Origin: Bacteroidota bacterium
GTDB taxonomy: Bacteria; Bacteroidota; Ignavibacteria; Kapaibacteriales; UBA961
Assembly (NCBI GenBank): GCA_020852855.1
Contig: JADZAA010000051.1
Location: 1 to 41,920, forward strand
DNA length: 41,920 bases
Reading direction: 5' to 3'
Both the position numbers and the translations under genes were made by a program. A model generated the notes under the pieces. That model was not told the DNA's origin, did not search any database, and saw only the letters and a program-made list of their open reading frames with translations. This document shows positions 6,787 to 29,001 of this stretch, piece by piece (the stretch's first letter is position 1; each line of letters opens with the position of its first letter).

Positions 6787-6943
6787 AATGACACAATCCT
6801 ATCAGAAAGTTGCGGGAGTTCCAGAAAGCATAATACGCAATTTATTACGGCTCGAAAGAAAAACGAGCTATGCATTACGCTTCTCCGGCCGTCGTCGGAG
6901 CGCGGCGACAGGCTATCGTATAAATCAACGAGAATGTCGCATG

Positions 6944-6985: not shown

Positions 6986-7007
6986 CGCACAGAGCGTGTT
7001 TTGCGTT

Positions 7008-7187: not shown

Positions 7188-7199
7188 GGTTGAACACCG

Positions 7200-7709: not shown

Positions 7710-7819
7710 TTTATTGAAAACGAACAACAAATATACGGATAATAACGGTTTTTGCCATATTCTACGGAGTGCGATACCCTTATTTTTATACAGTTTTGCA
7801 CATTTCAGACAAATTTACA

Positions 7820-8854: not shown

Positions 8855-9031
8855 CAATTCTGTCCATTATTCCGCACTACGAAAGATTTGCCTGCCTGAT
8901 TTGGCGAAAAATCTGCCGTTTTATTGCATTTACAGTTGTTACGTCAATAATTACGCCAATATGCCCAATGAATACAAATTACCGCTTTTATGCACCTTTC
9001 GGGTTGTTTAATACACGGCAACGACTTGACG

Positions 9032-12182: not shown

Positions 12183-13397
12183 TTAGGCTGCCTTGTCTTT
12201 TTCGGTCAGAACATCGCGCAATGCTACTATAAATTCGTCAATTTCTTCTTTGCCGGCTATCAATGGCGGCAAAATCCGTATCACAGAACCGGCAGTAATA
12301 TTGGACACTACACCTCTTTTAAGCATAAGTTCTACAAAATCAGGCATTTCCGAGTTTAGAGCGATGCCCTGCATAAAGCCTTGTCCGCGAATTTCTTTGA
12401 TAAGTTGCGGAAATTCTGCGGCTTTCTCAAGAAGACGTTCACGCAAATAAAGCCCAAGTTTTCCGACATTTTCCATCAAACTGTTCGTTACTTCATCTAC
12501 GACTACTGCACCGGCCGCGCAAGCCACTGCGTTTCCGCCATAAGTTGTACCGTGCATTCCGCGTTGCAACAGCGAAGCTACGGTATCGTCCGTAAGAATC
12601 GCACCCAAAGGCAATCCTCCGCCAAGCCCTTTTGCCGTGGTGACAATATCGGGACGAATATCGAATTGCTCAAATCCGAAGAAAGTTCCCGTGCGCCCTA
12701 TTCCGGCTTGCACTTCATCGGCTATAATCAGAAAACCGTGTTCTTTGCGCAATGCTTTCAATGTTTCCACAAATTCCGTTGATGCAGGAATTATTCCGCC
12801 CTCGCCCTGCAAAAATTCCAATGCAACGCCGCAAACACGCTCCGTAACGGCAGCGCGAAGTGCAACGGTATCATTGAACGGAATTACACCCATATTAGGC
12901 AAAAACGGCCCCATGCCGTTTTTATACAATGGTTTATCCATAAGCGACAGGGATCCGTAAGTACGGCCGTGGAACCCTCCCGTAAATGCAAGCATATCGG
13001 TTTTACCGTGTGCCGCCCCCCATAAACGGGCAAGTTTTACGGATCCTTCAAAACTTTCCGCGCCCGAATTACTGAAAAAAACACGCTCATAACCGCTCGC
13101 TTTTTTTAGAAGTTCCGCAAGCCGTATTTGGGGCTCTTGGTAGAAAAAATTGGAAAGGTGCATGAATCTGTTCGTTTGCATATTCACTGCCGATATTATG
13201 CGCGGATGCCCATGACCGAGCGCATTAACCGCTATTCCGCTTAGGAAATCGAGATAACGCCGCCCTTCAACATCATATATGTAACATCTGTCCGCATGGC
13301 CGACAGCTATTGGTAAACGACGATAAGTCTGAAAGATAGCTTCGTTTTCACGGACTATTAATGCCGCAGAATTTTCGCTTTGCCCCGGATTTGTCAT
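12183..13397 (-). CDS. argD: Acetylornithine aminotransferase-type class III aminotransferase
   Basis: A 404-aa PLP enzyme of the class III (ornithine/acetylornithine) aminotransferase family. Visible: [16 protein letters not shown] (PLP phosphate site), FHGRTYGSL, the IIADEVQAG motif with the PLP-ring aspartate D227, and the Schiff-base lysine K256 in TTAKGLGGG. The most likely reaction is N-acetylornithine plus 2-oxoglutarate to the semialdehyde in arginine synthesis; succinyl-diaminopimelate or ornithine as substrate cannot be excluded from sequence alone. No other arg genes are nearby. It is a single-gene unit closed by a terminator. Confidence 0.82.
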
Positions 13398-13475
13398 AGC
13401 CTTTTGAATAAATAAACAATACAGACAATTTTATTTTGCAAACGCAAGCATATTATACACACTCACGGCAAAACG

Positions 13476-14186
13476 CTATTTTGGTAAATTCAGACGTTGG
13501 ACATCGGATTTGTATGAAATAGTATCTGAAATTCCGGCACGTGCAAAACCGCGTAACCGCAAAACGCAAGAGTCGCACTCGCCGCAGGCAAAGTCTTCGG
13601 ACTGATAGCAACTCCACGTAAGATGAAGCGGTGTCCCAAGTTCGGAACCGAGCCGTACAATATCCGCTTTGGTAAGGTTAATCAGCGGAGTACGTATGGA
13701 TATATGTGTATCAGGTTTTACGCCGACGGACACCATACGTTCGAAAGCATCGAAAAATATTTTTCGGCAATCCGGGTATCCGCTTGAGTCTTCCTCAACC
13801 GCACCTATATAGATAGCCGAAGCACGCAGAACTTCCGCCCAACTGACTGCTATGGAAAGTATGTTTGCATTGCGGAACGGAACGTAACTATTGGGAATTT
13901 CGCGACTGCTTAGGTTGGCTTTGGATACAGATACGGAAAAGTCTGTCAAGCTGCTTCCACCTATGGCCGCAAGATAACCTATATCCGTTGCAAGGCGTAA
14001 GTCAATTCCGTAAAAATCGGAAATTGCCTGAAAAGCGGCAAGCTCGCGCTGTTGCGTTCGCTGTCCGTAATTTACGTGCAACGCGGCTATCTCGAATCCG
14101 TCGGCTTGTGCAAGAGCGGTACAGACGGCCGAATCCATACCGCCGCTAATAAGAACAACGGCAATAGGTTTTGATGATTTGGGCAT
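13476..14186 (-). CDS. queC: 7-cyano-7-deazaguanine synthase QueC
   Basis: A 236-aa ATP-dependent enzyme that makes preQ0, the precursor of queuosine, from 7-carboxy-7-deazaguanine and ammonia. The PP-loop SGGMDS is at 14-19. Near the C terminus four cysteines ([15 protein letters not shown]) form the family zinc site. It is probably co-transcribed with panD, whose stop is 26 nt upstream. No queD, queE or queF is in the window. Confidence 0.95.
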
Positions 14187-14212
14187 AGAAAATATCTCTG
14201 GAACGAGAGCGT

Positions 14213-14602
14213 TCAGTTCTCGTAGAGAGTGTAAGCTTCTACCGAACGGGAAATGTCTTTTACGGCATTGCGTCTATCTACCATAACAGCCGTAGGGCGA
14301 TAATTTCGAGCTTCTTCGGGTGTCATTTGCGCAAAACTTATAATTATTACTTGGTCGCCGATTTGCCCTTTTCGTGCGGCCGCACCGTTCAAGCAAATGT
14401 CCCCGCTGCCGCGCTCGCCCGGAATAACGTAAGTTTCAAACCGGTCGCCGTTATTGTTATTGACCACCAATACCTTTTCATAGCGCAACAAATCGGCGGC
14501 TTCCATCAGGTCTTCGTCTATTGTAATGCTGCCTTCATATCGCAGATCTGTTTCCGTAAGCGTAGCGCGGTGGATCTTGGATTTGAATATGGTTAATTGC
14601 AT
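14213..14602 (-). CDS. panD: Aspartate 1-decarboxylase PanD
   Basis: A 129-aa pyruvoyl enzyme that converts aspartate to beta-alanine for pantothenate and CoA. The self-processing site is visible as Y22-E23-G24-S25; cleavage at G24-S25 creates the pyruvoyl group. [15 protein letters not shown] and [11 protein letters not shown] also match the family. The length is normal. It starts the panD-queC pair and lies 132 nt beyond the tssK stop. Confidence 0.95.
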
Positions 14603-14734
14603 AAAGAGCCTCTAAAAAAGGATTCAACCAAATTAACGCGCCGTTTGTCGCCGCACAAAATTTCAGGATAATTTGCACAGAGAGAAACGGCGGATAAATA
14701 AGACGCTAAAATGCTGATGATTAGTGCAAAATCG

Positions 14735-16087
14735 TCAGACCTCGTCGGGCTTCTTACGAATATAAAGAACTATTTCCGACGGACGCGGCGAGTCGGCACG
14801 GTCATTTGTGTTTAATATTTCTAAGATTTGGTCAACCTCAACCGTGGCAACATCCGGCTTGAGAGCGAACAATACTGTACCGAAGGGCGGAACCAATTCA
14901 TCGTCTTTTTCCACGCGGATTCTTTGCGCACCAAGTATACGCCGTTCGCGCAGTGAACGGATTTTGTCGCGTGAGCCGATGACGCTTGATTCAACCCAAG
15001 AAATAATATCGCGCTCAGACATTCCGACTTGTCCTCGAACTCCGATGCAAAGCGGCATATTCATCCATTCGCGTCGGAACATAATTGTATAGCTGCCGTT
15101 TTCGTAAGAAAAATGCAACATTTGATGCGATTCAAGTATTCCCTCGCGTATCATACGGAATATAAATTCTTGTAATTCAATGAAATTTGAAAGCGAATCG
15201 CTGTGATTATACGGTATAAATACAGGAGGCAACAACCCTTGTCCCAGCGATGCAACGCTTCCGGCTATGGCACACAGCCCAAGATACAGATGCAAAGGAT
15301 GTGCAGTACCGCTTGCGATTAAGCCTTCAAATTGCGGCAGAGCTTGCGTCAGCACTTGTACTTGCCGCCGCGTTGTATCAATAAAATTCGGTATGCTGTA
15401 AGCCGACGGCGAACGCAATTTGTCGGCCAACGACATAGCCTTTTCGCGCAGACGCACGGCAATTGTCCGGCAAATCCCGCCTATTTCCGAGCTTGGCGTA
15501 ACTATCAGCGCAGGCGGCACATAATCGTCATGTACTATACTGTCATTCTTGAATTTCAGCCGCGCTATCGGCATTGAAACGTATTTTTGCGGCGGCACTT
15601 CTCCCGCCATAAGAGTAACTTTGGGCGTAAGACGCGGAATTGTAATTTCATTCTGTCCCGTGCTGTCGTCAGATACCGGCGGCCCCTCTACCGAGTCGTA
15701 TCGCCGCAAGTCGCCCTGCGCCCATGATGCGCCGGATTTCAATGCAGGTGCTACGATATAGACGGTCAGCGTACCTTGTTTCAAAACTTCACGATACGGT
15801 TTCAGGTCAAGTTCTAATTTGGGGGCGCCTTGATACGGATACGAGTATACCAATCCGTCAGGCAAAATCATTTCCAATTCCGACACACGCAATACATCGC
15901 TATAAAGCATTGCTGTATCGAAAGACAGAAGGCGCGTACCCCAATGATGCGCCGACATTATCCCCAAATGATAATGCAAGAGCATTTCGCCCCGCAACGA
16001 ACTTTGTTGAAAATGTTGCGGTGCCAGCAACATTCCCTCGTACCATTGTATTCTTTCCGGCACTTCTCGCGCACTAAATACTGCCAT
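14735..16087 (-). CDS. tssK: Type VI secretion baseplate protein TssK
   Basis: A 450-aa protein with the TssK N-terminal signature ERIQWYEGMLLAPQHFQQ and the middle and C-terminal sections of the family (LPDGLVYSYP; SCWI-free region; ELIPIP-like SVIGSRDKI). TssK trimers connect the phage-like T6SS baseplate to the membrane complex. An open extension up to 16303 overlaps tssJ and has no family similarity, so the ATG at 16087 (MAVFSAREVPERIQW) is the start. It is the last gene of the operon, 38 nt after tssJ. Its usual partner tssL does not follow. Confidence 0.92.
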   Translation of the reverse strand: MAVFSAREVPERIQWYEGMLLAPQHFQQSSLRGEMLLHYHLGIMSAHHWGTRLLSFDTAMLYSDVLRVSELEMILPDGLVYSYPYQGAPKLELDLKPYREVLKQGTLTVYIVAPALKSGASWAQGDLRRYDSVEGPPVSDDSTGQNEITIPRLTPKVTLMAGEVPPQKYVSMPIARLKFKNDSIVHDDYVPPALIVTPSSEIGGICRTIAVRLREKAMSLADKLRSPSAYSIPNFIDTTRRQVQVLTQALPQFEGLIASGTAHPLHLYLGLCAIAGSVASLGQGLLPPVFIPYNHSDSLSNFIELQEFIFRMIREGILESHQMLHFSYENGSYTIMFRREWMNMPLCIGVRGQVGMSERDIISWVESSVIGSRDKIRSLRERRILGAQRIRVEKDDELVPPFGTVLFALKPDVATVEVDQILEILNTNDRADSPRPSEIVLYIRKKPDEV

Positions 16088-16125
16088 TGTCGCTGTTCCT
16101 TTGCTGTTTTCGGTAAGTTTACCGG

Positions 16126-16611
16126 TTATTTTACCGGCTCTATTGTAAAATCTTTTTCCTGAAAAATTATGCTTATGTCGGCATAAGGGTCTATCGGAAT
16201 GCGATGCGGCCCGGCGGTAAAGTAATTTGCAAAAACAATTCCGCCGACTGCCTTCACTTTCATGGGTAATTGCAACGGAGCAACGTTCTGACCGGGTGCC
16301 CATTCATATTGCCAAACGTCGTATCCCTCACCTTCAGGGTAATTCGCACGAATTTCCTCGCGTTTTTCGAACCAATCCTTGGCAGTCAAGGTCATCAGCT
16401 GCTTTTGCAATAATTCGTCGTATATCAGTAAAATATCTGTTTGTATCGGGCTCGATTGGTTCACTTTGGGGTTAATACTGACGTTTACCGTTACTTTGCC
16501 GCCGAACAATGCACTTACCCATGTTCCGAATCCGCACGAACTCAGCGTGCCGGCAAGAGTAAGTAGCGATATCGCAATTATTAGTTTTCGGGATATTACT
16601 TGCATAAGCAT
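16126..16611 (-). CDS. tssJ: Type VI secretion outer-membrane lipoprotein TssJ
   Basis: A 161-aa lipoprotein. The signal peptide ends with the lipobox LSSC, lipidated Cys26. The mature part has the TssJ pattern: VTVNVSINPKVNQ, DILLIYDELLQKQLM, and the C-terminal PADISIIFQEKDF-like end (DPYADISIIFQEKDF). TssJ anchors the TssJLM membrane complex in the outer membrane. ATG at 16611 is chosen because GGAG lies 9 nt upstream; an upstream TTG at 16632 has none. It is followed closely by tssK, the standard tssJ-tssK order of the proteobacterial-type (T6SS-i) system. Confidence 0.88.
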   Translation of the reverse strand: MLMQVISRKLIIAISLLTLAGTLSSCGFGTWVSALFGGKVTVNVSINPKVNQSSPIQTDILLIYDELLQKQLMTLTAKDWFEKREEIRANYPEGEGYDVWQYEWAPGQNVAPLQLPMKVKAVGGIVFANYFTAGPHRIPIDPYADISIIFQEKDFTIEPVK

Positions 16612-16671
16612 TAATTTATTCTCCTTCGGCAAAACATCAACAGCCGCTTTTTGTCACTTTTATATTTGGTT

Positions 16672-17274
16672 TTACAGTTTTCCTGTTTGTTTCACTGCCG
16701 ACTTTATTCGCATCTTTTTTTTCAATACAGCAACGTCGGAACGTGCATCTTTAATGTTATCGAAAAGTCCGATTCGGACAGCATACCATTGCCTGCTTTT
16801 ATCTTCAGCCGGATAGATATACGCAGCAAGCCCTTTCTTAAGTAATTCCTTGCAACGTCGTTCGCCACGTTCGCGGCTTGCAAATATTCCTACTTGTATT
16901 GCATAATAAGTAGTGTTTTGCAAAATACCGTGTTCTTTATCGCTACTGCGCAAGGTGTTTATCTCGTACATAAGCGACGAATCCGTTCCCGACTTAACGG
17001 TTGTATCCGTTGCCGGAACAGCCAACGATGTCAACAGTACCTGACTTACACGTTTTGTCGGACTGCTTGTTGATACTGCAGGATAGATATACAAGCCTAA
17101 CAATACTCCCGCGCTTAACAGCAGTATTGCCAAGACAGAGCCCATAAACGCCGCCAGCGCGATACTCCCACCGCTAAATGAAAATACGTATTTGCGCCGC
17201 ACTTGCAATTTCCTGACTAATGCGTAAAAATACAATCGTTTTATTACGTTTGTACAGAAATAATCAAGCTGCAT
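16672..17274 (-). CDS. SPOR-domain single-pass membrane protein
   Basis: A 200-aa protein with a basic N-terminal cytoplasmic segment, one transmembrane helix at about 38-62 (IALAAFMGSVLAILLLSAGVL region), a Ser/Thr-rich linker, and a C-terminal SPOR domain (about 122-195). The SPOR domain has the two repeats YAIQVGIFASRERGE and YAVRIGLFDNIKDA. SPOR domains bind denuded peptidoglycan glycans, usually at division sites. Its place between the DUF4280 gene and tssJ suggests a role in anchoring the T6SS through the cell wall, but that is inference. No strong ribosome binding site is seen before ATG 17274. Confidence 0.8.
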   Translation of the reverse strand: MQLDYFCTNVIKRLYFYALVRKLQVRRKYVFSFSGGSIALAAFMGSVLAILLLSAGVLLGLYIYPAVSTSSPTKRVSQVLLTSLAVPATDTTVKSGTDSSLMYEINTLRSSDKEHGILQNTTYYAIQVGIFASRERGERRCKELLKKGLAAYIYPAEDKSRQWYAVRIGLFDNIKDARSDVAVLKKKMRIKSAVKQTGKL

Positions 17275-17387
17275 TTAAAGCATGATTTCTCTTACGGCAA
17301 AGATACAGATTTTTTCATTCCAATGCGTAAAAAAATACATCGTAAATAGCGGTAAAACTATTGTAACGGCATACTTTCTCCGATACT

Positions 17388-17777
17388 TTAAGGTATCATT
17401 TCCGTGAATTGCCCCGGCAACATTATCGTTATTACGCCGCCCCACATACACATCAAAGTAGATGTATTGTTTAATGCGGGCACTGAGCCGAGCAAAACCG
17501 TCGGAGAGCCTACTATCCACGGTGCTGCCGTTACCGGTATGCATGGCATAGGAGTCAAAACGCCCAATGCCGCTGCCGTTGCTGCCGCTACCATTGGATT
17601 CGACGGCGTTATGCACATACCAAACGGCATGATATTCATAAACGGCACATGATCCATAATATTCGCCGCCGGAACTTTGCTTGTAAATGTACGATTTACA
17701 GGCAGTATATTCAGCGTGGATGGTGCTACGCCGAAGCTGCACATCATCATTGCGCCGGTAGCTGCGTGAAGTCCCAT
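17388..17777 (-). CDS. DUF4280 PAAR-like spike tip protein
   Basis: A 129-aa protein rich in Gly, Pro, Met and Ala with four cysteines at 13, 55, 79 and 110, in the spacing of the DUF4280 PAAR-like family (GAMMMCSFG at the start, MCMWGGVITI at the end). PAAR-like proteins cap the VgrG spike and can carry effectors. This one has no toxin extension. The ATG at 17777 follows the upstream stop by 1 nt and has a GGGGG site in front; the longer open frame overlaps the MORN gene and is rejected. It is presumably the tip for the VgrG encoded just upstream. Confidence 0.85.
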   Translation of the reverse strand: MGLHAATGAMMMCSFGVAPSTLNILPVNRTFTSKVPAANIMDHVPFMNIMPFGMCITPSNPMVAAATAAALGVLTPMPCIPVTAAPWIVGSPTVLLGSVPALNNTSTLMCMWGGVITIMLPGQFTEMIP

Positions 17778-17778
17778 T

Positions 17779-18630
17779 TTATCCCCCGGTAAGTCTTTGC
17801 ACAAAATCTGACAGGAACGGTTTTTTGGATTTCTTTTCACCTGAATCCGGCTCTTTCAAGTCGCCGTTTTCGTCAAATTCCAATGGTTCGCCGGCCAGTT
17901 TCCCGTTCTTAAAGACTTGCTTGCGGGCTATTGCGCCCGTAGTTTGATGATACGTCAGATATTCGCCTTCAATCTTATTTTGCTTGAAAAAACATTTTTC
18001 CCGAAGTTTCCCGTTTTCGTAATACTTCAGACATTCTCCTTCGAGTATATTGTTTTTATAGCGCGTCTTTTCACTGATTTTTCCGCTTAGGAAATACAAC
18101 AAGTTTTCTCCTTCAAGCATGTCGTTGACATAGAAGCACTTACGTATAAGAACGCCTGCTTTGTCATACCATTGCGACTCTCCGTTCAGTTTTCCGTCGG
18201 CATAAGTATTTTTTGTTGATATTTGGCCGTCTTCGCCGTAAGAAATTGCCAATCCGTGTTGCTTGCCGTTTTTATACTGAATACGAGTACGCGGCATACC
18301 TTTATCATACAGAACAGTTTCGCCGTCCGGTATTCCGGATTTATAGGAAACGCGCTGCAATAACTTCCCGTGCTCGTCGAATATTTGAGTTTCACCGTCA
18401 AGTTTCCCATCTACAAAGAAAGACTGCTGAACTTTAGCACCGCTTGTGGAAAACGTAATGGTTTCGCCGTTCAGAATACCATTGGCGAATACGCTTTTCT
18501 GCTGCAAATTTCCATCTTCGGCATAAAGCAACATTTCGCCGTCGAGTTGCCCCATACTGTTTACGTACATTACTCGCTGAAGCATTCCTGACGGGTATTT
18601 GTCTTCATGTTTTATTTTTTCTTCGGACAT
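17779..18630 (-). CDS. MORN/YwqK-type repeat protein
   Basis: A 283-aa protein made of about ten repeats of roughly 22 residues with the pattern Y-x-N-G-x-L-x-G-E (for example YADGKLNGESQWYDKAG, YKNNILEGECLKYYENG, FKNGKLAGEPLEFDENG). Databases often name such proteins 'YwqK family antitoxin'. There is no signal peptide; the C terminus is charged and ends in FVQRLTGG. It sits between vgrG-C and the DUF4280 gene, overlapping neither but only 1 nt from the latter. A chaperone/adaptor or immunity role in the T6SS unit is plausible, unproven. Confidence 0.75.
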   Translation of the reverse strand: MSEEKIKHEDKYPSGMLQRVMYVNSMGQLDGEMLLYAEDGNLQQKSVFANGILNGETITFSTSGAKVQQSFFVDGKLDGETQIFDEHGKLLQRVSYKSGIPDGETVLYDKGMPRTRIQYKNGKQHGLAISYGEDGQISTKNTYADGKLNGESQWYDKAGVLIRKCFYVNDMLEGENLLYFLSGKISEKTRYKNNILEGECLKYYENGKLREKCFFKQNKIEGEYLTYHQTTGAIARKQVFKNGKLAGEPLEFDENGDLKEPDSGEKKSKKPFLSDFVQRLTGG

Positions 18631-18658
18631 TATTTTGCCTCGTAAATAAGAGCAAGTG

Positions 18659-20470
18659 TCAATTTATCATAACCATTCCGCCCTTAAGTATCAGCATTCC
18701 GCCGCCGTCGACGGTCTGCATTGCACCGGCTTTATTGGTCATCATAGTGCCTGCATCATTTGTAAGCATAACTCCTGCCTTGTTATCAAGATTAACACCT
18801 GCTTCCGCTTTGAAATTAACGCCGGCTTTATTGTCAAAGTTAGCTTGTGCTTCATGCGCCATATTTAATCCGGCTTTGGTATTTACATTCATTTTGGCAT
18901 CAAGCGTAAAGTCCTTTGCGGATTTAACGGTAATATCGCCCAATGTGGATTCCAACGAAATCGTTTTGCCTTTTATTATAATATCGCCGCTGCCTTGTGC
19001 GCCAGTAGCCTCGATTGTAATGCTGTCGCCCTTGACTGTGAGCGTATATGTTTTTCCTACTATATGTTCGTAAGTTCCTTCGTTGATATGTGTTTCGGAT
19101 TTGTCGGGTCCGAAAACGGTCGTTTTTCGATTACCGCCCTTTACCACTAATGTGTCTATGGCTTCGCCGTCAAGTGCCGGTTTTTCGGCTTTATCGGCTT
19201 TGTCGCTGCTCGGGTCGGGTTTTTCCACAAATATCTGGTGATTATTATGGACAACCGTAACGGCATCATTTTTTACTACTTCTACACGGTCGTTTTCTAC
19301 GCGGATATTATAGTCTTTTTCGGCATGAAGAAAAATCTCTTCATCGCCTTTTTTATCCTCAAAACGCAGTTCATTATAGCCGTCATCAGAATCTTTGCTC
19401 GAATGAGTCTTGATAGTCGAGCGTGTTTGATTGGCGGGTAATTCGTATGGAACAACTTGTTGCGCATTATACACCATGCCCGTAATCAGAGGACGGTCCG
19501 GGTCGCCTTCGAGGAACGATACGACGACTTCCATACCGATACGCGGCGTAAAAATAATGCCCCAGCCTTTGCCTGTCCAGCCTTGTGCCACTCTTATCCA
19601 GCACGATGATTTTTCGTCATACTTCCCTTCTTGGTCCCAGTGGAACTGAACTTTGACGCGCCCGTAATTATCCGTGTATATTTCTTCGCCGGACGGCCCG
19701 ACCACCATAGCGGTTTGCGTGCCATGTATGCGCGGCGGCTGCGAGTTGCGCGGCGGACGGAAAGCAACCGATGCCGGCAGTGCCTCAAATTTATTGCTGT
19801 AACGCTCCGGTGTTGCTTCGATTTGCAATGAATGGATAATATAATCCTGATTAAGCGTTGCGCGCTGATGTTCGCTCATTGTAAATCTACCGCCGGCTAT
19901 GAATGCCTTTATCTGCGACTTTCCCGTCAGTGTTTTGCGGAATGCTTCGCGCTCGGCAATGCGAAGTGCAACACGAGCATCGGCTGTAGAACTATCCTTT
20001 ATACCGGCAGGATATTCGTACACTCGCATTTCGCCACTCGACGAGCCTGCGGTTTCCAACAGTAGGTCATTTTGCGAAGTCTCGAAGTTATAATCATCTA
20101 CGGCGAATTTACCCGTAACAATACGCTGTCCGTAGGAACACTCGTTGATGATTTCTTCTTCGTTCAGATACGGATCATCGGCACCGGCAAGCAAGGAATT
20201 TGCCAAAATGGCATCGGCAATTGGCGTAGCGGCCGGCAACATATCGTCAATCGAAGGAATAGCCTCCGCAAGACCGGTTACATCGAGCGCGGCAATGCGC
20301 ATCTCGTCAAGTCCGCTGCCTACGGCACCTACTGTTCCCGCTACTTGTTCCAAACGCGATTCAGCCTCGGCAATAGTATCGGATATGCCCTGCAACTTGG
20401 ACAAAATCGAGCTTACGCTGTCATTGGCCTCGCCTATTCTTTCTTCGGGGTCTTGCGCTTCGACTGCCAT
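18659..20470 (-). CDS. VgrG C-terminal half with N-terminal extension
   Basis: A 603-aa protein. Residues 5-88 are a helical extension shared with the other VgrG half (QDPEERI start, LDEMRIAALDVTGLA). From about residue 105 it matches VgrG only from the last part of the gp27-like region onward (RIVTGKFAVDDYNFET, YEYPAGI). The gp5-like OB domain follows (about 246-345: GEEIYTDNYGRVKVQFHWD, SCWIRVAQGW, PRIGMEVVVSFLEGDPDRPLITG), then a beta-helical needle. The needle ends in short repeats such as NKAGVN, NDAGTM and NKAGAM (about 525-588). The first gp27-like domain of a normal VgrG is absent and is encoded separately at 24432-25346. No effector domain follows the needle. It starts 58 nt after the coiled-coil gene. 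Confidence 0.9.
   Translation of the reverse strand: MAVEAQDPEERIGEANDSVSSILSKLQGISDTIAEAESRLEQVAGTVGAVGSGLDEMRIAALDVTGLAEAIPSIDDMLPAATPIADAILANSLLAGADDPYLNEEEIINECSYGQRIVTGKFAVDDYNFETSQNDLLLETAGSSSGEMRVYEYPAGIKDSSTADARVALRIAEREAFRKTLTGKSQIKAFIAGGRFTMSEHQRATLNQDYIIHSLQIEATPERYSNKFEALPASVAFRPPRNSQPPRIHGTQTAMVVGPSGEEIYTDNYGRVKVQFHWDQEGKYDEKSSCWIRVAQGWTGKGWGIIFTPRIGMEVVVSFLEGDPDRPLITGMVYNAQQVVPYELPANQTRSTIKTHSSKDSDDGYNELRFEDKKGDEEIFLHAEKDYNIRVENDRVEVVKNDAVTVVHNNHQIFVEKPDPSSDKADKAEKPALDGEAIDTLVVKGGNRKTTVFGPDKSETHINEGTYEHIVGKTYTLTVKGDSITIEATGAQGSGDIIIKGKTISLESTLGDITVKSAKDFTLDAKMNVNTKAGLNMAHEAQANFDNKAGVNFKAEAGVNLDNKAGVMLTNDAGTMMTNKAGAMQTVDGGGMLILKGGMVMIN
20207..20458 (-). repeat. Direct repeat copy A encoding the shared extension
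   Basis: Codons 5-88 of vgrG-C. At protein level about 61 of 84 positions are identical to copy B (25071-25322), counted by hand with no gaps. DNA similarity is also visible, for example in the stretch encoding GLDEMRIAALDVTGLA. The two copies are in the same orientation and flank the giant coiled-coil gene. Confidence 0.85.
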
Positions 20471-20528
20471 ATAAATTACTAAGTCTGATTAAACTGTTAT
20501 CTTATCTGGTTCTGCTTTGCAATTGTCT

Positions 20529-23500
20529 TCAGTTTATGCCGGCTTCGCGTCGGGCATCTTCAATTATTCTGTCCATACGTCGCTCCGCATCGGAAAGAAC
20601 ACGGTCGTAAGTATTGCCCATATTTTGCAAAATTTGCCCTATTTCTGACTCCGCTCGCGCAATGGCTGCGTCAATTTGTTGTATTGCACTCGCTATTGCG
20701 GCATCTAAACGCGATTCGGCTTGACCTATTCCTGCATCGCATTTTTGCTCAAGTCGTGCTATAAAATCGTCAATTTTAGACTTAGCGTTGGAAATAACTC
20801 TATCGACCTCGGCTTCGGCTTGCGCTACTTGATTTTTAACCGAGACTTCGGCATTTGCCCACACATTCATCAGATTATCAAATCCCGACGATATTCCGCC
20901 TTGTACACGCTGTTGCGCATCCGAAAAAGCAGCATCTATCTGAGATTTGCCTTCTTGGATTTTATCTCGGATTTCGGCTTCAACGCCGTCAACCTTTTGT
21001 TTCGCTTCCTCGACATATCCATTTGCCTTATCTTCGGCCTCTTTAATTTTAGCCTCTATTTCATCAATTTCGGCATGAATTTTCGCTTCTTCTTCATTTA
21101 TTTTTCCTTCGACTTCAGCCAAACGATCGCGCAGATATTGCACCGCGTCTTTTGCCTTTTGTATTCCCTCGTCTATGGCATCCTGTATAGGCTTGAGTTT
21201 TTCCCAAAATTCATCTATTTTCTTCTGCATTTCAGCACGAGCTTCAGCTATTTTATCAAGTACTGCCTGACCTTGTTCGGCTATATTCTGCACTTGCTCA
21301 TTGGCAGATTCCAGATATTGACGCGCTGCGGGAATAGGTGCTTTGGCCGCTTCTACGGCGGCATTGGCTCCGGCAGCTTGCGCGGCAAGTGCCTTGGCGG
21401 TAGGGTCAAGCATACCGTTGGAGTCGTTATTGCCGCTCGACATCATAGATGCCCACATTTGCTTCGCTTTTTCTATAAGCTTCTTTACGTCCTCGATTTT
21501 TGCCAAAGCCGTGGCAATAGCTTCTATTATCGGCCCGAATTTTTCCGTAAATCCGTCGACGACTTTCACTACGGTGTCTATAACGGACATAACGGTTTTT
21601 ATTACTTCGATTATTTGGTCTATTTTTTCGCCGATAAGCTCTTGGAACTTCCTGACTAAATCCTCGAATTGCCCTATTTTTTCATCTACCGTTTCAAATA
21701 CCGCGTTAATCGGAGTAAATACATTGTTAATTTCATTTTGCACATCAGACAAAAATTGTCTGACTTTTTGCAGTTGTTCGCGCAATGTTTGCGCCGCTTG
21801 GCGTATAGGATCGGTAGGAGGAATTGCGCTTAATACTTTTTGCTCAAATTGTTCGATTACATCATCGAGTTGCGTCAGTTTCCGCTGAATTTCGTCGCTT
21901 ACCGCGTGAACAGGTTGTTTAATCTGCTCGGCGGCCTGATTTACCTTTGCCTGAATATCGTCCAGAATTTTCTTTGCATCGTTAAGTGCTTGTTTTACGG
22001 GCTTTATTGCATCGTCTTTGGCTTTCATCAGCGTGTCGAATGCGCCGTTTATTGTTTGCTCTGCACGGCCTAACTCGGCGTTTGACTTGCTTAGAGCGTC
22101 GCTTTTGGCTGCCGAGGCTGTTCCTACCGATGAATTCAAGAACGATTTTATATCATTTACAGCCGATTTCACTGCATTCATCGAAGTATTTTTTGCACCG
22201 TCAAGATTTTGCAACGCTGTCTGTGTTTTCTGTTTAGCTTGTTTAAGTGCATCATTCAGTTCTGTTGCCGCTTGATTTTTAGCTTGGTTTATTCTATCAG
22301 TCAGATTCGGAACGCGATTTTTAATGCTACCCGGCACAGAGTTGATTTTATTCTGCGCCATCAAAGCAAGTCCGTCTATTCTGGTCTGTGCCGTTGCAAA
22401 TTCACTTTCAGTCTGCCGTCGCAACATAGCCGTTGCATCGTCCGATTTTCTTTTCAATTCGGCCGCAACCGTATCGGTGCGACTTTGAACAATGCCGTTT
22501 ATCTGATTTAACTTGGCATCGAAATAATCGCCCAAGCCGGATGCGCGGCTCTGCGAATATGCCCTAATGTCGCTGATTCGCGCCTTGAAACGTCCGGCTG
22601 TGTCATCGGCATATTTACGCAGTTCTTCAATTTTCTTTGAAATATCGTCTACTGCTCTTTGCAGTTGCTTTTTAATGTCGTCAATGGATTTTTCAAATTG
22701 GGCTATCAAATCGTCGGCGTATTTTTCTAAATCGGCTACTACTTTGCCCATATTTTCGATTTTCTTTTGCAGAAAATCAATAGTATCTTTGATTAATTTT
22801 TTAAATCGTTCTACAAGTCCTACCGTAAAATCTTCTATTTGCTTTATTTTATTTTCAGTATTCTGAATTTTAGCTTTCAGATAACCTATTGTTTCGTTTA
22901 CCGTAGCCTGAAAATCAAGAATTACTCCTTGCCCTTCTTGTATTCTTCCGCGCGCCCATTCCGCTTTTTGAATAATAGGTTCAAACAGACCTTTGAACGA
23001 ATTCAGCAAGTCATTGACTTTGTTTTGTGCTATCTGCGTTTGATTGCGCAATTCGCCTACGGCCTGCGATGCTTGTTGCGCAAGAGCGAATGCTTCCGGC
23101 ACTTGTTGTTGCGCATTTTGTAACAATTGCTCTAAAATCGGAAATTGCTCCAATGTATCGAGTGCATTGCTAAATGCGCCTTGCGGATCCGATTGGTCTT
23201 TTGCGTCTGTTAGGGAACGTATGGAGTTTTCGGCGGTATTTATCGCACTATTTACTGCACTTTGCGGTTCCGCCCCGGGTAATGCTGCAAGTTCTTCCTC
23301 AGTTTGTTTTAATTGCTCTTCGGCCGCTTGCCTTGCTTGTTGCGCCTGCTCGGTTGCTTCATGAACAGAGGCGGCCTCTTGCTCTGCCGCTTCCTGTGCC
23401 TGCGCCATTTCTTCTGCCGCTTGTTCTCGCGTTTCCTGCGCTTGTGCTTGGGCTTCTTCACGCGCTTGCTCTTGCTCGGGTGTCAACGGCTCATCCGGAA

Positions 23501-24371
23501 TTTGCTCGGCCGCTCCTTCGGCGACTCCTTCGGCCTGCTCGGCCGCTCCTTCGGCCGCTCCTTCGGCCTGCTCGGCCGCTCCTTCGGCGACTCCTTCGGC
23601 CTGCTCGGCCGCTCCTTCGGCCTGCTCGGCCGCTCCTTCGGCCTGCTCGGCCGCTCCTTCGGCGACTCCTTCGGCCTGCTCGGCCGCTCCTTCGGCGACT
23701 CCTTCGGCCTGCTCGGCCGCTCCTTCGGCCTGCTCGGCCGCTTCACTCGCGCCAATCTGCAAGTTTGTAACAATTTCTGCTTGCCCGTCACCCTGAAAAT
23801 CTCCGGTCGGCGGAATGTAATCGGCTGCTTCATTTGCACCGTCCTGCAAACCCGCAACTGCGTCGGCGGCATCGGCTGTAGTATTCTGCAAACCCGCAAC
23901 TGCGTCGGCGGCTTCATCTGCTGTATTCCGCAAACCCGAATCCGGAATTAAGTCTGCGACTTCACCTGCTTCGTCCAGATTTAATACAGCTATATCAGCT
24001 TTACCTTCACCTTCAAAATCACTGTCCGGCGGAATGTAATCGACCGCTTCACTCGCACCGTCCTGCGGAATTGAATCCGGAATTAAGTCTGCGGCTTGGC
24101 CTGCTTCGTCTTGTAAATCCGGAACGGCATCGGTTGCTTCGCTGTCTTGCAAACTTGTTATTACATCAGAAGCTGCGTCGTCGTTCAGCCTTACAGTCGA
24201 GGGCGGAATGCCTGTCAAAGGGCCGTCGTCAGGCAATGCGGAAGCATCTGTTACTCCGACAAGATTATCGTCGGCTTCCATTTGCGGAGCATTTTCTATA
24301 CCTTTAAGCGTTTCTTTTTTCACCGCTTGTTCGGCTTTCTGTTCATCGGGATTTATCGCATTTTTTGACAT
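20529..24371 (-). CDS. Giant coiled-coil protein encoded between the VgrG halves
   Basis: A 1280-aa protein I cannot assign to a named family. Residues 1-210 are acidic and low complexity, with imperfect repeats such as DGASEAVDYIPP and DGANEAADYIPP, and two ADLIPDS motifs. Residues 211-290 are the tandem repeat AAEQAEG/VAEG. From about 300 to the end it is a nearly continuous amphipathic alpha-helical coiled coil resembling apolipoprotein-like or spectrin-like helices, including a more hydrophobic stretch near 900-975 (IEVIKTVMSVIDTVVKVVDG). A short break has SSGNNDSNGML. There is a single cysteine near the C terminus. No signal peptide or toxin motif is seen. It lies between the two vgrG halves with 58-60 nt gaps, so it is probably co-transcribed. 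It may be a T6SS cargo, adaptor or structural part of the spike. Function unknown. Confidence 0.85.
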   Translation of the reverse strand: MSKNAINPDEQKAEQAVKKETLKGIENAPQMEADDNLVGVTDASALPDDGPLTGIPPSTVRLNDDAASDVITSLQDSEATDAVPDLQDEAGQAADLIPDSIPQDGASEAVDYIPPDSDFEGEGKADIAVLNLDEAGEVADLIPDSGLRNTADEAADAVAGLQNTTADAADAVAGLQDGANEAADYIPPTGDFQGDGQAEIVTNLQIGASEAAEQAEGAAEQAEGVAEGAAEQAEGVAEGAAEQAEGAAEQAEGAAEQAEGVAEGAAEQAEGAAEGAAEQAEGVAEGAAEQIPDEPLTPEQEQAREEAQAQAQETREQAAEEMAQAQEAAEQEAASVHEATEQAQQARQAAEEQLKQTEEELAALPGAEPQSAVNSAINTAENSIRSLTDAKDQSDPQGAFSNALDTLEQFPILEQLLQNAQQQVPEAFALAQQASQAVGELRNQTQIAQNKVNDLLNSFKGLFEPIIQKAEWARGRIQEGQGVILDFQATVNETIGYLKAKIQNTENKIKQIEDFTVGLVERFKKLIKDTIDFLQKKIENMGKVVADLEKYADDLIAQFEKSIDDIKKQLQRAVDDISKKIEELRKYADDTAGRFKARISDIRAYSQSRASGLGDYFDAKLNQINGIVQSRTDTVAAELKRKSDDATAMLRRQTESEFATAQTRIDGLALMAQNKINSVPGSIKNRVPNLTDRINQAKNQAATELNDALKQAKQKTQTALQNLDGAKNTSMNAVKSAVNDIKSFLNSSVGTASAAKSDALSKSNAELGRAEQTINGAFDTLMKAKDDAIKPVKQALNDAKKILDDIQAKVNQAAEQIKQPVHAVSDEIQRKLTQLDDVIEQFEQKVLSAIPPTDPIRQAAQTLREQLQKVRQFLSDVQNEINNVFTPINAVFETVDEKIGQFEDLVRKFQELIGEKIDQIIEVIKTVMSVIDTVVKVVDGFTEKFGPIIEAIATALAKIEDVKKLIEKAKQMWASMMSSGNNDSNGMLDPTAKALAAQAAGANAAVEAAKAPIPAARQYLESANEQVQNIAEQGQAVLDKIAEARAEMQKKIDEFWEKLKPIQDAIDEGIQKAKDAVQYLRDRLAEVEGKINEEEAKIHAEIDEIEAKIKEAEDKANGYVEEAKQKVDGVEAEIRDKIQEGKSQIDAAFSDAQQRVQGGISSGFDNLMNVWANAEVSVKNQVAQAEAEVDRVISNAKSKIDDFIARLEQKCDAGIGQAESRLDAAIASAIQQIDAAIARAESEIGQILQNMGNTYDRVLSDAERRMDRIIEDARREAGIN
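23502..23741 (-). repeat. Coding tandem repeat, 21-bp and 12-bp units
   Basis: This encodes residues 211-290 of the coiled-coil protein: eight full 7-codon units AAEQAEG, one partial unit, and five 4-codon units VAEG or AAEG interspersed. All units are multiples of 3, so copy-number change would alter length without a frameshift. The DNA is nearly identical between units, which suggests recent expansion. Confidence 0.9.
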
Positions 24372-24431
24372 TGCCGCAACCGTTCTGAGTTAAATAATCA
24401 CCTGATTTTTTAATTAGAGTTTTGATAGATT

Positions 24432-25346
24432 TTAATGACCTGACCTGCGAGAAGGTGCAAAACGCGCCTTATCCAGTCCGGCGCATGATTCATGCACGGA
24501 AACGTCATCGGCCAGCACAAGCGTATGTTTATCTTCGGTGTGCTCAAAGTAATAGAAAATTCCTTCCTCTTCCATGAGCCTCGATATAAAATTAAATGCC
24601 GTTTCCCGGTATTGCACGCAATATTCACGTGGCTGATACGTAGCTTTCGTAGCGTTCCTATATTCCGCAAAGTCAAATTCATCAAAGACCTGCGTAATAA
24701 TATCAACAACAGATTTCTCTTGAAAAATACGCGAATTTTGTGTTAGCGTCAAGATCCACAGCCAAGGCACTACTTCGGCAAAATAATAGGTATGGTCTAC
24801 GGTATTGCCTCCGTGTGCGAATCGCGATACATATCCGTTAATATAGCGTTTTGCGCCGTCGGCAAGCATAATCGAAACCGTAACTTGTTTTCCCACTATC
24901 GCATCAAAATCAAGGTCATCGTCCTCCGATATCGTTTCGAGCGTATATCGGAACAGAGCGGAAATATGCTCATCGCCCGTAATGCGTTGCAAATGAAGTG
25001 CTTTTGCGCCGAATGGCGTTTTAAATTGAAGATATACCGGTTCTTCGCCGTCGGAGTCCGCCGCCGCTGCTATAGCATCGCTGATCGGCGTTCCGGCCGG
25101 CAACATAGAATCTAATCCCGGTATTAAATCGGCAAGGCCGGTAACGTCAAGCGCGGCGATACGCATCTCGTCAAGTCCGTCGCCTATCGAGCCTACGGTT
25201 TGCGCCGTTTCTTCAAGTCGCCTTTCAGCCTCCGATATCATGCCGGATATGCCCTGCAAGCGCGATAGAATATCGTCTACGCTTTCATTTGCCGCCGAAA
25301 TTCTTTCTTCGGGGTCTTGAGCGGCATTGTTTTGTTCTTCAGCCAT
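24432..25346 (-). CDS. VgrG N-terminal half with N-terminal extension
   Basis: A 304-aa protein. Residues 9-92 are the helical extension shared with vgrG-C. Residues about 104-290 are the first gp27-like part of VgrG: LQRITGDEHISALFRYTL, SEDDDLDFDAIVGK, VVPWLWILT, SRIFQEKSVVDII, REYCVQYRETAFNFISRLMEEEGIFYYFEH and HTLVLADD. It then stops after RFAPSRRSGH, where a canonical VgrG would continue. The missing part is encoded at 18659-20470 without visible overlap or loss. The frame extends to a GTG at 25400, but the ATG at 25346 matches the start of vgrG-C. No clear ribosome binding site. It is the first gene of the T6SS-related operon. Confidence 0.9.
   Translation of the reverse strand: MAEEQNNAAQDPEERISAANESVDDILSRLQGISGMISEAERRLEETAQTVGSIGDGLDEMRIAALDVTGLADLIPGLDSMLPAGTPISDAIAAAADSDGEEPVYLQFKTPFGAKALHLQRITGDEHISALFRYTLETISEDDDLDFDAIVGKQVTVSIMLADGAKRYINGYVSRFAHGGNTVDHTYYFAEVVPWLWILTLTQNSRIFQEKSVVDIITQVFDEFDFAEYRNATKATYQPREYCVQYRETAFNFISRLMEEEGIFYYFEHTEDKHTLVLADDVSVHESCAGLDKARFAPSRRSGH
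25071..25322 (-). repeat. Direct repeat copy B encoding the shared extension
   Basis: Codons 9-92 of vgrG-N, paired with copy A at 20207-20458. Same orientation and no gaps in the protein alignment. Conserved blocks are AQDPEERI, LQGIS, EAE.RLE, GLDEMRIAALDVTGLA, MLPA and TPI.DAI. Confidence 0.85.
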
Positions 25347-25403
25347 AGAGCTATTTAATCGTTGATTGTCGAGTTCGCACTTTGTCGCTTTATCATTCAC
25401 AAT

Positions 25404-25831: not shown

Positions 25832-28246
25832 TCAGAATCTAATACGTGCGCCCACATTAAAAGTAATTTTCTCCGTAGCCCAAACTCCATCGGATATAAA
25901 ATCAGTCAGATGGCGCGTGTAAAGTGTTTCGAGGAACAGCGATGTTGTAATAGTAACCGGATATGAAAATCCTATTCCGCCAAAAACGCCTATGTTCAAA
26001 TCATTTATTGTTTCAAGTGATGTAATCGGTTGCACGATTTCGCGCTCTCCGTTTTCTACATAGACTAAATCTCCGGGCGACAGAATTTCGCGTTTAAATT
26101 CTATGGATTTTGAAATCGGTACAGTAAATTTTACTCCGCCGAGCAAATAAACGTTTCTGTCTGCATACCATTCGGCGGCGAGCGAAAGTCCAAGTGTCAA
26201 GCCCGTAAATCGCAATGTTCTTCCTTCTTGAAACATTGTCAAATTGCCGTTTGCGTCGCGCACATTCGATATTACCGTATCGGGTGCATTTAGCGTTTCG
26301 GGCATATTTTCGCATAATATCCGCGCCGAAACACCAAGTTCCGGCAGAACCCGCTTGGCAATTACAGCACCGAAGAAGCCGCCGTTTCCGCTTGCATCGC
26401 CGAAAATACCTTTCGACACGGCCGCGCCGCTCATACCGAATGAGGCAGATTGATAATTCACGGAATATAAAGCAAAAGCTCCGAAACTCCACGATGAATG
26501 TTCTATGCAAAGCGGATTTTCACCGTCGGTAAAGGAATATCCGAAGTGGTCGGTTTGAGCATCCAAAGTATAGCAAACTGTAAATAACGAAGAATTTCCG
26601 GCCATATCGGTCGCCTGCACTACCATACGGCCCGGTACATCTTGCTGAACGGGCTTTGCAAAGAACGAAATTTGCGGAACGCCCTCTTCAATTGCAGGCA
26701 ATGCCGCTTGCAGTCCTTGGGCATAAACGACTTTAATTGTTTTTAAGCCGCTGTCGTATGTTCTGTCGTCGCGCAGTACAACATTGATGCGGTCGCTCAT
26801 TGCGCGGGATTCGCCCGATGGCGCAGTAGTGTCGGGGACATCTTCTATTTTGAAAAAAGTCTGTCCGCCCATTGTTCCATAAGCGTCGTATGCCTGCGAT
26901 TTATAGCCGAATCCGTAAGAATACAAGCCAAAAGGGTCGTTTGCCTTAATAATATGCGTACCATATTTCACTTGCAGTTGCGCTATGGAATAACGACTTA
27001 GCCCAAGTGTTTGAAACGTTGTGGAATCAACTCGGCGGCCGTCCAATCGAAGCGTAGGTATGGATTTTGTCGGGATAACCACATTAATATAGTGATTCCA
27101 TTCGCCGCTGATAGGTGTGGCGAAGCGATACTCTTTCATAAATTGTTGCGTTGGGCTGATAAGCAACATCATCGGGTCGCCTATGGAATCGCCATTGGAA
27201 AATCCCTGCGAGTATTGCGCCACGAGAACAGGCTTGTCGGCGGTAATTTGAATATGCCGACGCGCGGCTGAATTTTCGTAAAATTCACCGGCATTCAACA
27301 CTGCTACAAGTGCCGAATTTTCAAATACTTTCGTTTTTGGTTCGGCAGCCATGACGCGAATTGTATGGCGAGAGCGACCTTGCAGAAGCCCTACGTAATA
27401 ATGTTTGCCCCAAGCCGAAACTGGAGGCAACTGTTCCACAAGAAAATTGCAACCTATAATCGGATTTGGCACGTAGGCGCATTGATGCCCGCTGAAAACA
27501 GCAATTTTTTTATTTGCCTGAATAAGCGAACCGGTCAAATCGCCAAGATTCGGAGAATCCGGATTTGCGGTAACTTGATATACGTCACCCGCTTTCATAC
27601 GAACGGTATAAGGAATCCCTGACCGTCGGTATTTTGATGTTAGTGCGGTAGGCGTAATCGTAACTTCAGTTTCATCTTCGGTTGCAATAACGGCAAATTG
27701 AGACATCAGCCCTTCGGAATAACGATAGCCTATAGCGCGATATTCAAAGCCGAGCGCGGAAACGGGCAGCCCCAAATATGTATCGGTTGTTTGAAAGCGA
27801 TGATTAAGCCCATAGACCGAAACAGGTATATCCGAAACTATATGCACGGCAAGCCTTTGCAGAATTTCCTCGCCCGTAACTTGTGCGTTCGGGTCAATTT
27901 TCACTTGAACGACGGTGCCGCCCGGAACTTTTACCATGCGCTTATACCCCAAGCCGTCTATGGTAATTTCTGCATTCGCATCAGAGCCGGCTGTAAGAAA
28001 AAGCTCGAGCGCAAGGTTGTTTTTCAAATCACGCGATTGTCGCGAATCTTTGTAATTCCTCTGAAAACAAAGATAAAACTCCGTTCCCTCTGACGTAATC
28101 TCTTCGACTTTTGTGTTTTTCGGAAAAGCACGCGCGTCTTGTGCATAGACTTTATCGGCCGGCAATACAGCCGCCGCGCTTGCAATTATGACACAAACGA
28201 TTATTCTACGGAAAGTTGCGAATATTCTGCGAGTCATTTCAAACAT
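25832..28246 (-). CDS. IgGFc-binding-domain protein fused to an outer-membrane beta-barrel
   Basis: An 804-aa exported protein. The signal peptide ends near residue 36 (VLPADKVYAQ). The N-terminal two thirds match the IgGFc-binding N-terminal domain type found in many environmental Bacteroidota: FYLCFQRNYKD at the start, VSVYGLNHRF, LGLPVSALGFEYRAIGY, IATEDETEVTITPT, SGHQCAYVP and EQLPPVSAWGKHYYV. From about residue 580 the sequence becomes amphipathic beta strands rich in Gly and aromatics, ending in FNVGARIRF. A terminal Phe is typical of outer-membrane barrels. Its start overlaps the upstream gene by 13 nt; an alternative ATG at 28237 would give a 4-nt overlap. Probably a surface adhesin or structural protein; ligand unknown. 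Confidence 0.75.
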   Translation of the reverse strand: MFEMTRRIFATFRRIIVCVIIASAAAVLPADKVYAQDARAFPKNTKVEEITSEGTEFYLCFQRNYKDSRQSRDLKNNLALELFLTAGSDANAEITIDGLGYKRMVKVPGGTVVQVKIDPNAQVTGEEILQRLAVHIVSDIPVSVYGLNHRFQTTDTYLGLPVSALGFEYRAIGYRYSEGLMSQFAVIATEDETEVTITPTALTSKYRRSGIPYTVRMKAGDVYQVTANPDSPNLGDLTGSLIQANKKIAVFSGHQCAYVPNPIIGCNFLVEQLPPVSAWGKHYYVGLLQGRSRHTIRVMAAEPKTKVFENSALVAVLNAGEFYENSAARRHIQITADKPVLVAQYSQGFSNGDSIGDPMMLLISPTQQFMKEYRFATPISGEWNHYINVVIPTKSIPTLRLDGRRVDSTTFQTLGLSRYSIAQLQVKYGTHIIKANDPFGLYSYGFGYKSQAYDAYGTMGGQTFFKIEDVPDTTAPSGESRAMSDRINVVLRDDRTYDSGLKTIKVVYAQGLQAALPAIEEGVPQISFFAKPVQQDVPGRMVVQATDMAGNSSLFTVCYTLDAQTDHFGYSFTDGENPLCIEHSSWSFGAFALYSVNYQSASFGMSGAAVSKGIFGDASGNGGFFGAVIAKRVLPELGVSARILCENMPETLNAPDTVISNVRDANGNLTMFQEGRTLRFTGLTLGLSLAAEWYADRNVYLLGGVKFTVPISKSIEFKREILSPGDLVYVENGEREIVQPITSLETINDLNIGVFGGIGFSYPVTITTSLFLETLYTRHLTDFISDGVWATEKITFNVGARIRF

Positions 28247-29001
28247 AGAAGATAGGACATATACGCTCCTTTATTTGTCGTCATAGTCAGATAATATGCA
28301 CCGGCACCAAATTCACCCGGCCCGACATTAATAAAAAAGCGATGGCGACCTCGTGTCTGCTGAAACGGGGTATAATCACGCATCAATTGCCCGATAGCCG
28401 AATAAATGCGGAAATGCACCGGTGTTTCGTCCTCTATATTATAGTAAAAATTCGTGCTTAGATTGAACGGATTAGGTGCATTTTGCTCTATTCCCTCGGC
28501 GGCTATCCGCTTAACGCGCTTATCTCCTATGGAAATCGTTCCTTTTTTTGATTGGAATTCGTGTGCTGCGCCGTTAATAAACACGCTGTCGGGAATAATA
28601 TGCGCAATAGAGTCGGAACCGGCAAGAATTTCAACCGTCATATCGAATAATTTGCCCGTACCTGCACTTACAGAATCACATTGAATTTCAAATATTCCGT
28701 TAATTTCACCGGACATTTCCGAAAAAGCGGGTATAGAGCAACCAATAATTTTCCCAATTCCGCCGGTTACGTTTTTTATATGTATGCGCGAAGCATCAAA
28801 AGCAAATCGCAGGCGCACGTTGGCTGCTTCCGGCAGTTCGCCCGATACGCTTAATGCGACGCTTTCCGGCCTAATATCGCCCAATACAGTATCCGGTACG
28901 GAAACAGAAATCTGTGCCGAAACCCGGGACGGATTCGATAACGAAAGTGCCGCCCCGAAAATAGCGATGCAGAATATGTACAGCGCACTATGTCGGCACA
29001 T
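28234..29001 (-). CDS. Secreted cohesin-like protein with sorting-domain-like C terminus
   Basis: A 255-aa protein with a signal peptide (CRHSALYIFCIAIFGAALSL to SRVSAQ). A beta-sandwich of the cohesin-like type follows (VRLRFAFDASRIHIKNV, GKLFDMTVEIL). The roughly 85-residue C terminus resembles a type IX secretion sorting domain: QNAPNPFNLSTNFYYNI, VHFRIYSAIGQLMRDY, GAGAYYLTMTTNKGAY. ATG at 29001 is chosen because GGAG is 5 nt upstream; the longer frame overlaps secA. It overlaps the next gene, so the pair is likely co-expressed and may work together on the cell surface. Confidence 0.75.
   Translation of the reverse strand: MCRHSALYIFCIAIFGAALSLSNPSRVSAQISVSVPDTVLGDIRPESVALSVSGELPEAANVRLRFAFDASRIHIKNVTGGIGKIIGCSIPAFSEMSGEINGIFEIQCDSVSAGTGKLFDMTVEILAGSDSIAHIIPDSVFINGAAHEFQSKKGTISIGDKRVKRIAAEGIEQNAPNPFNLSTNFYYNIEDETPVHFRIYSAIGQLMRDYTPFQQTRGRHRFFINVGPGEFGAGAYYLTMTTNKGAYMSYLLCLK

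Follow-up and report, generated by a model that had tools for sequence, protein, structure and literature searches.

The IgGFc-binding domain (PF17517, here the IgGFc domain) takes its name from a human mucus protein. In the open-licence literature we found no bacterial function for it, a search for PF17517 giving only work on mussels, and no description of an architecture in which it is joined to an outer-membrane barrel. The closest described systems are found among outer-membrane barrels and among the cargo of type IX secretion. In OmpA, the OmpA domain is periplasmic, and the lumen of an eight-stranded barrel is filled with side chains. The barrels of PorP/SprF and PorV are larger than eight strands, and a classical autotransporter (type Va) has a 12-stranded barrel with a pore-threading helix. 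As a general rule, the strand number of Gram-negative outer-membrane barrels is even, and the barrel domain starts and ends in the periplasm (PMC9329534). Genes for Type B cargo have been linked to PorP/SprF outer-membrane barrels (PMC12618676). PorA of Porphyromonas gingivalis comprises 246 residues, a signal sequence being followed by a single N-terminal domain and then a sorting domain; it is reported to arrive at the surface independently of the type IX translocation machinery (PMC7712824).

We analysed a 41,920-nucleotide stretch of DNA from a Bacteroidota bacterium (the window), in which an open reading frame of 804 residues, P1, lies at 25832–28246 by the list of frames and their translations. 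An earlier note on this DNA had described P1, giving no strand, as an IgGFc domain continuing into an outer-membrane barrel that could expose the domain at the cell surface independently of type IX sorting, and had suggested the overlapping upstream gene, P2, as a partner. P1 lies on the minus strand. The features of the two genes are as follows, with the evidence for each in brackets.

25832..28246, minus strand: P1, whole gene, with signal peptide, IgGFc domain, Ig-like domain and predicted eight-stranded barrel (open reading frame, Pfam, AlphaFold)
28142..28246, minus strand: P1 putative signal peptide, residues 1–35, with Gln36 as the would-be mature N-terminus (sequence and model helix 3–27; cleavage site by eye)
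26912..27784, minus strand: P1 IgGFc domain, PF17517, residues 155–445 (Pfam, AlphaFold)
26525..26818, minus strand: P1 predicted Ig-like beta domain, residues 477–574, with Cys558 (AlphaFold)
26492..26524, minus strand: P1 linker, residues 575–585, with Cys580 (cysteine counts over 60 aligned proteins)
25835..26491, minus strand: P1 predicted eight-stranded OmpA-type barrel, residues 586–804 (AlphaFold, Foldseek, VIA-align)
28234..29001, minus strand: P2, 255 residues from the likelier ATG at 29001, or 277 from a TTG at 29067 (open reading frame and translation)
28531..28911, minus strand: P2 cohesin-like domain, residues 53–179 of the 277-residue reading (model, profile, fold)
28237..28476, minus strand: P2 type IX (type A) C-terminal sorting domain, residues 198–277 (TIGR04183)
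28234..28246, minus strand: overlap of P2 and P1, 13 bases (list of frames)

The AlphaFold model of P1 was built on an alignment (A1) of 60 of the 63 loci with a P1 hit, leaving out L094, L095 and L103; L009, a duplicate of L048, was dropped, and the truncated L010 was not used. With a mean pLDDT of 89.3 and a pTM of 0.73, the model runs from a signal helix through a large beta-rich lobe (about residues 54–447) and a beta domain (477–574) to the long strands of residues 586–803, with no helix between residues 448 and 586 except 449–451. Residues 586–804 are modelled as an eight-stranded barrel, the DSSP segments having been grouped by hand into strands 586–606, 618–632, 637–663, 669–694, 699–723, 751–763, 768–779 and 788–803. 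Short turns of 4 residues each occur at 633–636, 695–698 and 764–767; on the opposite side, where the strands have long extensions, loops of 11, 5, 27 and 8 residues lie at 607–617, 664–668, 724–750 and 780–787. Strands 3, 4 and 5, at 25–27 residues, look longer than a membrane crossing requires, as in OmpX-like barrels.

Comparison of folds places this barrel close to OmpA. OmpA was the top Foldseek match of P1 (E 2.3e-6), and by VIA-align the barrel scored Z 18.3 against the OprF barrel 4rlc (rmsd 2.0 over 128 residues), 18.4 against OmpW 8qxp and 17.3 against OmpA 1qjp. Residue 583 pairs with residues 3–4 of OmpA and OprF, and residue 804 with the barrel end. Hydrophobic and polar columns alternate in the last strand, positions 794, 796, 798, 800, 802 and 804 being hydrophobic in 89–98% of 46 rows, and the C-terminal residue is F, L or W in 44 of the 60 aligned proteins. 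By Pfam, PF17517 was the one domain found in P1 at E ≤ 1, and none of the barrel profiles matched; across the aligned proteins, at E ≤ 0.1, OMP_b-brl_2 matched 9/60 and OmpA_membrane 3/60. From these models we consider the C-terminal barrel very probably real, as the earlier note had proposed for the last 220 or so residues; the stretch it named, 560–804, also includes the end of the Ig-like domain and the linker, the barrel itself beginning at 586. That this region is instead a soluble beta sandwich, a fold for which we found no supporting point, is next to impossible in view of the high-confidence eight-strand prediction and the Z scores of 17–18 to OmpA-type barrels.

The P1 barrel is thus like OmpA, OprF and OmpW in fold, strand number, register and C-terminal strand. 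Unlike in OmpA-type barrels, large domains precede it and no OmpA peptidoglycan-binding domain follows: P1 has no PF00691 match and the protein stops with strand 8. The autotransporter domain PF03797 is absent from P1 and was matched weakly by one of the 60 aligned proteins (E 0.0087). Compared with the classical type Va autotransporter, P1 has eight strands and no pore-threading helix, and we rejected an autotransporter-like threading for a barrel of this size whose tether, described below, spans 5–6 residues.

Barrel relatives occur at four places in the same genome among the matches listed. One that we inspected, L044 (G000:C42:38500-43000; 661-4474, minus strand), contains an OmpA-family gene at 661-2664 whose product has its barrel first and its OmpA domain last; 13 bases away, the gene upstream of it (2678-4474) encodes a protein with a type IX-like tail at its end, matched by the P2 profile, and the order, tail then barrel, is that of P2 and P1. 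At another place, G000:C82:13364-20922, the gene for SprA (13364-19942) is followed on the same strand by a barrel match at 20263-20922 within a 689-residue frame.

PF17517 matched P1 over its full profile (1–297) with 251.7 bits against a cut-off of 25.6 (E 1.2e-74). The match covers residues 155–445, while the predicted folded lobe is wider (about 54–447), and all 60 aligned proteins matched the profile at E ≤ 0.1. Mean identity to P1 among the 59 aligned relatives is 59% in the IgGFc domain, 35% in the Ig-like domain and 31% in the barrel. NCBIfam gave no match to P1 at E ≤ 1. Searched against solved structures, the whole-P1 profile found at E ≤ 1 only a weak match of the Ig-like stretch to 8cxj (Surface protein R28; E 0.096), and no solved relative of the IgGFc part.

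The genome encodes nine PF17517 proteins, of which P1 is the only one that ends in a barrel. By reading of their sequences, the other eight, of 1032–1419 residues, end in type IX-like tails, and the C-termini of seven of these match the P2 profile (L109 gave no match). P1 shares PF17517 with them and differs in its end, a barrel in place of the tail; neither TIGR04183 nor PF18962 matched it at E ≤ 1, and it carries no recognisable sorting domain of a type IX substrate. In this respect, and in its IgGFc domain and outer-membrane barrel, the architecture of P1 is as the earlier note described it.

Across the loci the IgGFc domain occurs in proteins that carry a sorting tail, that end in a barrel or that lack any anchor, and these forms sometimes lie next to one another. 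L012 and L138 each have, directly upstream of P1, a gene for a second, barrel-less IgGFc protein; these genes, at 1587-2963 and 3667-5295, respectively, also lack a tail and stop soon after the IgGFc domain. L072 (G256) has tandem barrel-ended IgGFc genes at 3387-5918 and 6615-9146. At L136 and L137, genes for a tail protein, a tail-ended IgGFc protein (664 or 705 residues) and a barrel-ended IgGFc protein follow one another. Of the two tails there, the first scored 19.1 bits with NCBIfam, below the cut-off, and the second was unmatched by NCBIfam, yet both match the P2 profile.

On which side of the membrane does the IgGFc domain of P1 lie? With eight strands and an alignment in register with OmpA, everything before residue 583 is expected to be periplasmic. 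The even-strand rule and the homology make a periplasmic IgGFc domain the most likely arrangement. The L044 relative, with its OmpA domain after the barrel, supports this topology. In residues 545–592, two or three cysteines occur in 57 of the 60 aligned proteins, none in three, and never one; the tail-ended IgGFc paralogues of L136 and L137 have a single cysteine in this region. By alignment column, both Cys558 and Cys580 are present in 54 proteins, neither in three and only Cys580 in three, the first cysteine being shifted in three rows. Ten of the 57 proteins have three cysteines, which leaves the pairing there ambiguous. From this co-occurrence we suggest a Cys558–Cys580 bond, which, if formed, would tie the Ig-like domain to the periplasmic rim, since the linker cysteine precedes strand 1 by only 5–6 residues in all 57 cysteine-bearing proteins. 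Threading of the IgGFc domain through the pore would be unlikely given the filled lumen of an eight-stranded barrel and the Cys558/Cys580 tether. Loop variability is a weak argument for orientation, as lengths across relatives overlap (turn 2, 4–12 residues; turn 3, 4–7; loop 2, 5–6).

The self-display put forward in the earlier note, with the barrel carrying the IgGFc domain to the cell surface without type IX secretion, is the part of its reading that was not supported, and we consider it improbable. The domain family is otherwise exported, as judged by the type IX-like tails on eight paralogues (seven by profile), and the tandem paralogue of L136 and L137 has a tail where P1 has a barrel, which would fit two routes to one place. 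Set against this are the rule that an eight-stranded barrel has both ends in the periplasm (PMC9329534), the register with OmpA and OprF, and the tether of 5–6 residues after the linker cysteine.

P2, the gene upstream, overlaps P1 by 13 bases. The TTG start at 29067 is doubtful, and the ATG at 29001, which is followed by a putative signal peptide, is likelier. The P2 model (pLDDT 89.3) has two beta domains. The N-terminal one matched the cohesin 6kg8 by profile (E 2.7e-4), and by fold cohesins are among its many beta-sandwich matches; the Pfam Cohesin profile was found in 6 of the 53 proteins of the P2 alignment (A2, which excludes L100 and L105), the P2 of the window not being one of the six. 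At the C-terminus, TIGR04183 narrowly passed in the window's P2 (23.2 bits against a cut-off of 23, a marginal match), and PF18962 stayed below its cut-off (13.7 against 27). At E ≤ 0.1 they matched 43/53 and 37/53 of the aligned P2 proteins, respectively. The sorting-like tail that the earlier note had seen on the overlapping gene is thereby confirmed, if narrowly.

Type IX secretion is present in the genome, as PorU (797 bits), SprA (875 bits) and PorQ (223 bits, cut-off 220) are all over their cut-offs. The P2–P1 pair resembles Type B cargo with PorP/SprF in that a cargo gene with a sorting domain is linked to an outer-membrane barrel gene, which gives such a pairing a precedent (PMC12618676); the pair differs in that the tail of P2 is of type A, that the P1 barrel has eight strands and that P1 carries IgGFc and Ig-like domains. 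PorA is like P2 in size and plan, with an N-terminal domain that is FimH-like in PorA and cohesin-like in P2. As PorA is reported to arrive at the surface independently of the translocation machinery (PMC7712824), the route of P2 cannot be read from its sorting domain alone. A further reading builds on this likeness: P1 and P2 could form a sensor, with P2 on the surface like PorA, a 246-residue protein of the same plan that acts upstream of PorXY-SigP (PMC7712824), and with P1 relaying the signal to the periplasm. The FimH-like N-terminal domain of PorA, where P2 has a cohesin-like one, speaks against this, and we think it very improbable. We know of no IgGFc-barrel neighbour of PorA.

Elsewhere in the window, at 18659–25400 on the minus strand, a VgrG gene occurs in two halves, 24432–25400 matching positions 2–193 of TIGR03361 and 18659–20470 positions 197–511. 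Between them lies a 1280-residue coiled-coil frame (20529–24371), and, by eye, the opening 85 or so residues of the two halves are similar.

To place the architecture in its class, a profile of the Ig-like domain and barrel, built on alignment A3 (46 of the 60 rows of A1), was run against 294 class genomes at E ≤ 1e-30, a threshold at which weaker relatives are missed. The architecture was found in 79 of the 294: all 62 genomes sampled from the order, which is probably Kapabacteriales; 5/5 of family f13; and 12/13 of family f19. The P1 gene is split over two contigs in G179 and G285 and cut by a contig end in G107; of these, the P1 of G107 and the N-terminal part of the G285 gene, on C17, were left out. 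At a looser threshold, none of the other matches listed starts before profile position 86, these covering the barrel without the Ig-like domain. Among 395 sampled genomes of the phylum, the near-full-profile matches, of those listed, lie in the order, f13 and f19; six other class genomes gave E values of 1.5e-16 to 4.5e-4, and outside the class values were 4.9e-7 or worse. PF17517 is present in all 63 order genomes of a separate sample. We conclude that the joining of IgGFc domain and barrel is a real, conserved and apparently undescribed architecture that occurs in a single order and in two other families of the class. P1 as a general component of type IX secretion was considered and rejected: SprA occurs in 292 of the 294 class genomes (290 over the cut-off) and P1 in 79.

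P2 adjoins P1 in 53 of the 62 order genomes. Five genomes, all of family f5, lack it; three loci are cut by contig ends and one (G285) was not judged. These five are five of the six f5 genomes, with no verdict on the sixth. The 53 P2–P1 gaps, measured in 50 fetched genomes, the window and loci L011 and L012, fall within −35 to +24 bases in 47 cases, −4 being commonest (16). The six others comprise five longer overlaps, which look as if the start codon had been placed too far upstream, and L012, where the second IgGFc gene lies between. A cysteine pair within the IgGFc domain, Cys256 and Cys266, is present in full in 55 of the 60 aligned proteins and absent in full from five, all of family f5. 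The joint loss of this pair and of P2 is suggestive, and as f5 is one lineage it counts as one event.

In the sister family f19, the partner is smaller. A protein of 132–180 residues, consisting of a signal peptide, a short linker and the tail, is encoded upstream in 11 of the 11 loci examined, one gene further up in L136 and L137 and directly upstream elsewhere. None of these proteins matched the cohesin profile, and the three of the 11 scanned with NCBIfam gave TIGR04183 scores of 26.0, 22.9 and 22.4 bits (cut-off 23). Apart from the signal peptide, what these upstream proteins retain of the partner is the sorting domain, and this suggests it as the element with which P1 or its barrel deals. 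In family f13, a tail-bearing gene lies directly upstream in one of five loci (L135) and is absent from there in four, L131 having one only farther away on the opposite strand. P1 can therefore exist without an adjacent partner, given the five f5 genomes and these four f13 loci.

On the other flank, 30 of the 63 loci, L011 and L084 among them, have a CcmB-like gene immediately after P1; the window does not. PF03379 was matched in the two examined, and the gene gave no usable lead.

This distribution bears on whether P1 acts by itself. P1 might be an envelope protein of the OmpA kind that acts alone and uses its periplasmic IgGFc domain to bind a component of the envelope, its link to P2 being co-regulation only. 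Its persistence without adjacent P2 in five f5 genomes, and without a directly upstream tail gene in 4/5 f13 loci, is consistent with such a role, and the identity of 59% in the IgGFc domain against 31% in the barrel suggests that this domain has its own, conserved role in binding. Nevertheless, adjacency to P2 in 53/62 genomes and a tail-only protein in 11/11 f19 loci are much to ask of mere co-regulation, and we regard the solitary role as possible but doubtful. The earlier note's suggestion of the upstream gene as a partner is probably right; what stands is that this gene, with its type IX tail, is conserved beside P1, and physical partnership is a guess.

We favour the reading, at a probability of roughly 0.5, that P1 is a periplasm-facing outer-membrane partner of P2, a type IX cargo protein. 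The eight-stranded OmpA-type barrel of P1 would anchor the Ig-like and IgGFc domains on the periplasmic face of the outer membrane. P1 would work with the overlapping and probably co-transcribed P2, a putative type IX cargo made of a cohesin-like and a sorting domain. As a dedicated outer-membrane partner, P1 would bind P2, probably through the P2 sorting domain or the long extracellular hairpins of the barrel, and would hold P2 or hand it over at the outer membrane. Both the contact and its purpose are guesses on our part. If the domains of P1 are periplasmic and P2 is at the surface, the two would meet only in transit or through the barrel loops. To our knowledge, the known type IX shuttles belong to a different barrel family from P1.

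A more specific form of this partnership, which we offer tentatively and regard as rather unlikely as it stands, is that the two proteins form an accessory pair of type IX secretion peculiar to this lineage. In it, a barrel of the OmpA type, in place of a PorV or PorP-like one, would recognise a protein with a sorting domain and link it to a periplasmic IgGFc module. Were this so, the IgGFc fold would be at work on either side of the outer membrane in a single cell. If the barrel-ended form is periplasmic, both the name of the IgGFc domain and its assumed role as a surface adhesin would mislead. The pairing of P1 with a sorting-domain protein that can be reduced to the tail alone would offer a clean test of small barrels as type IX partners.
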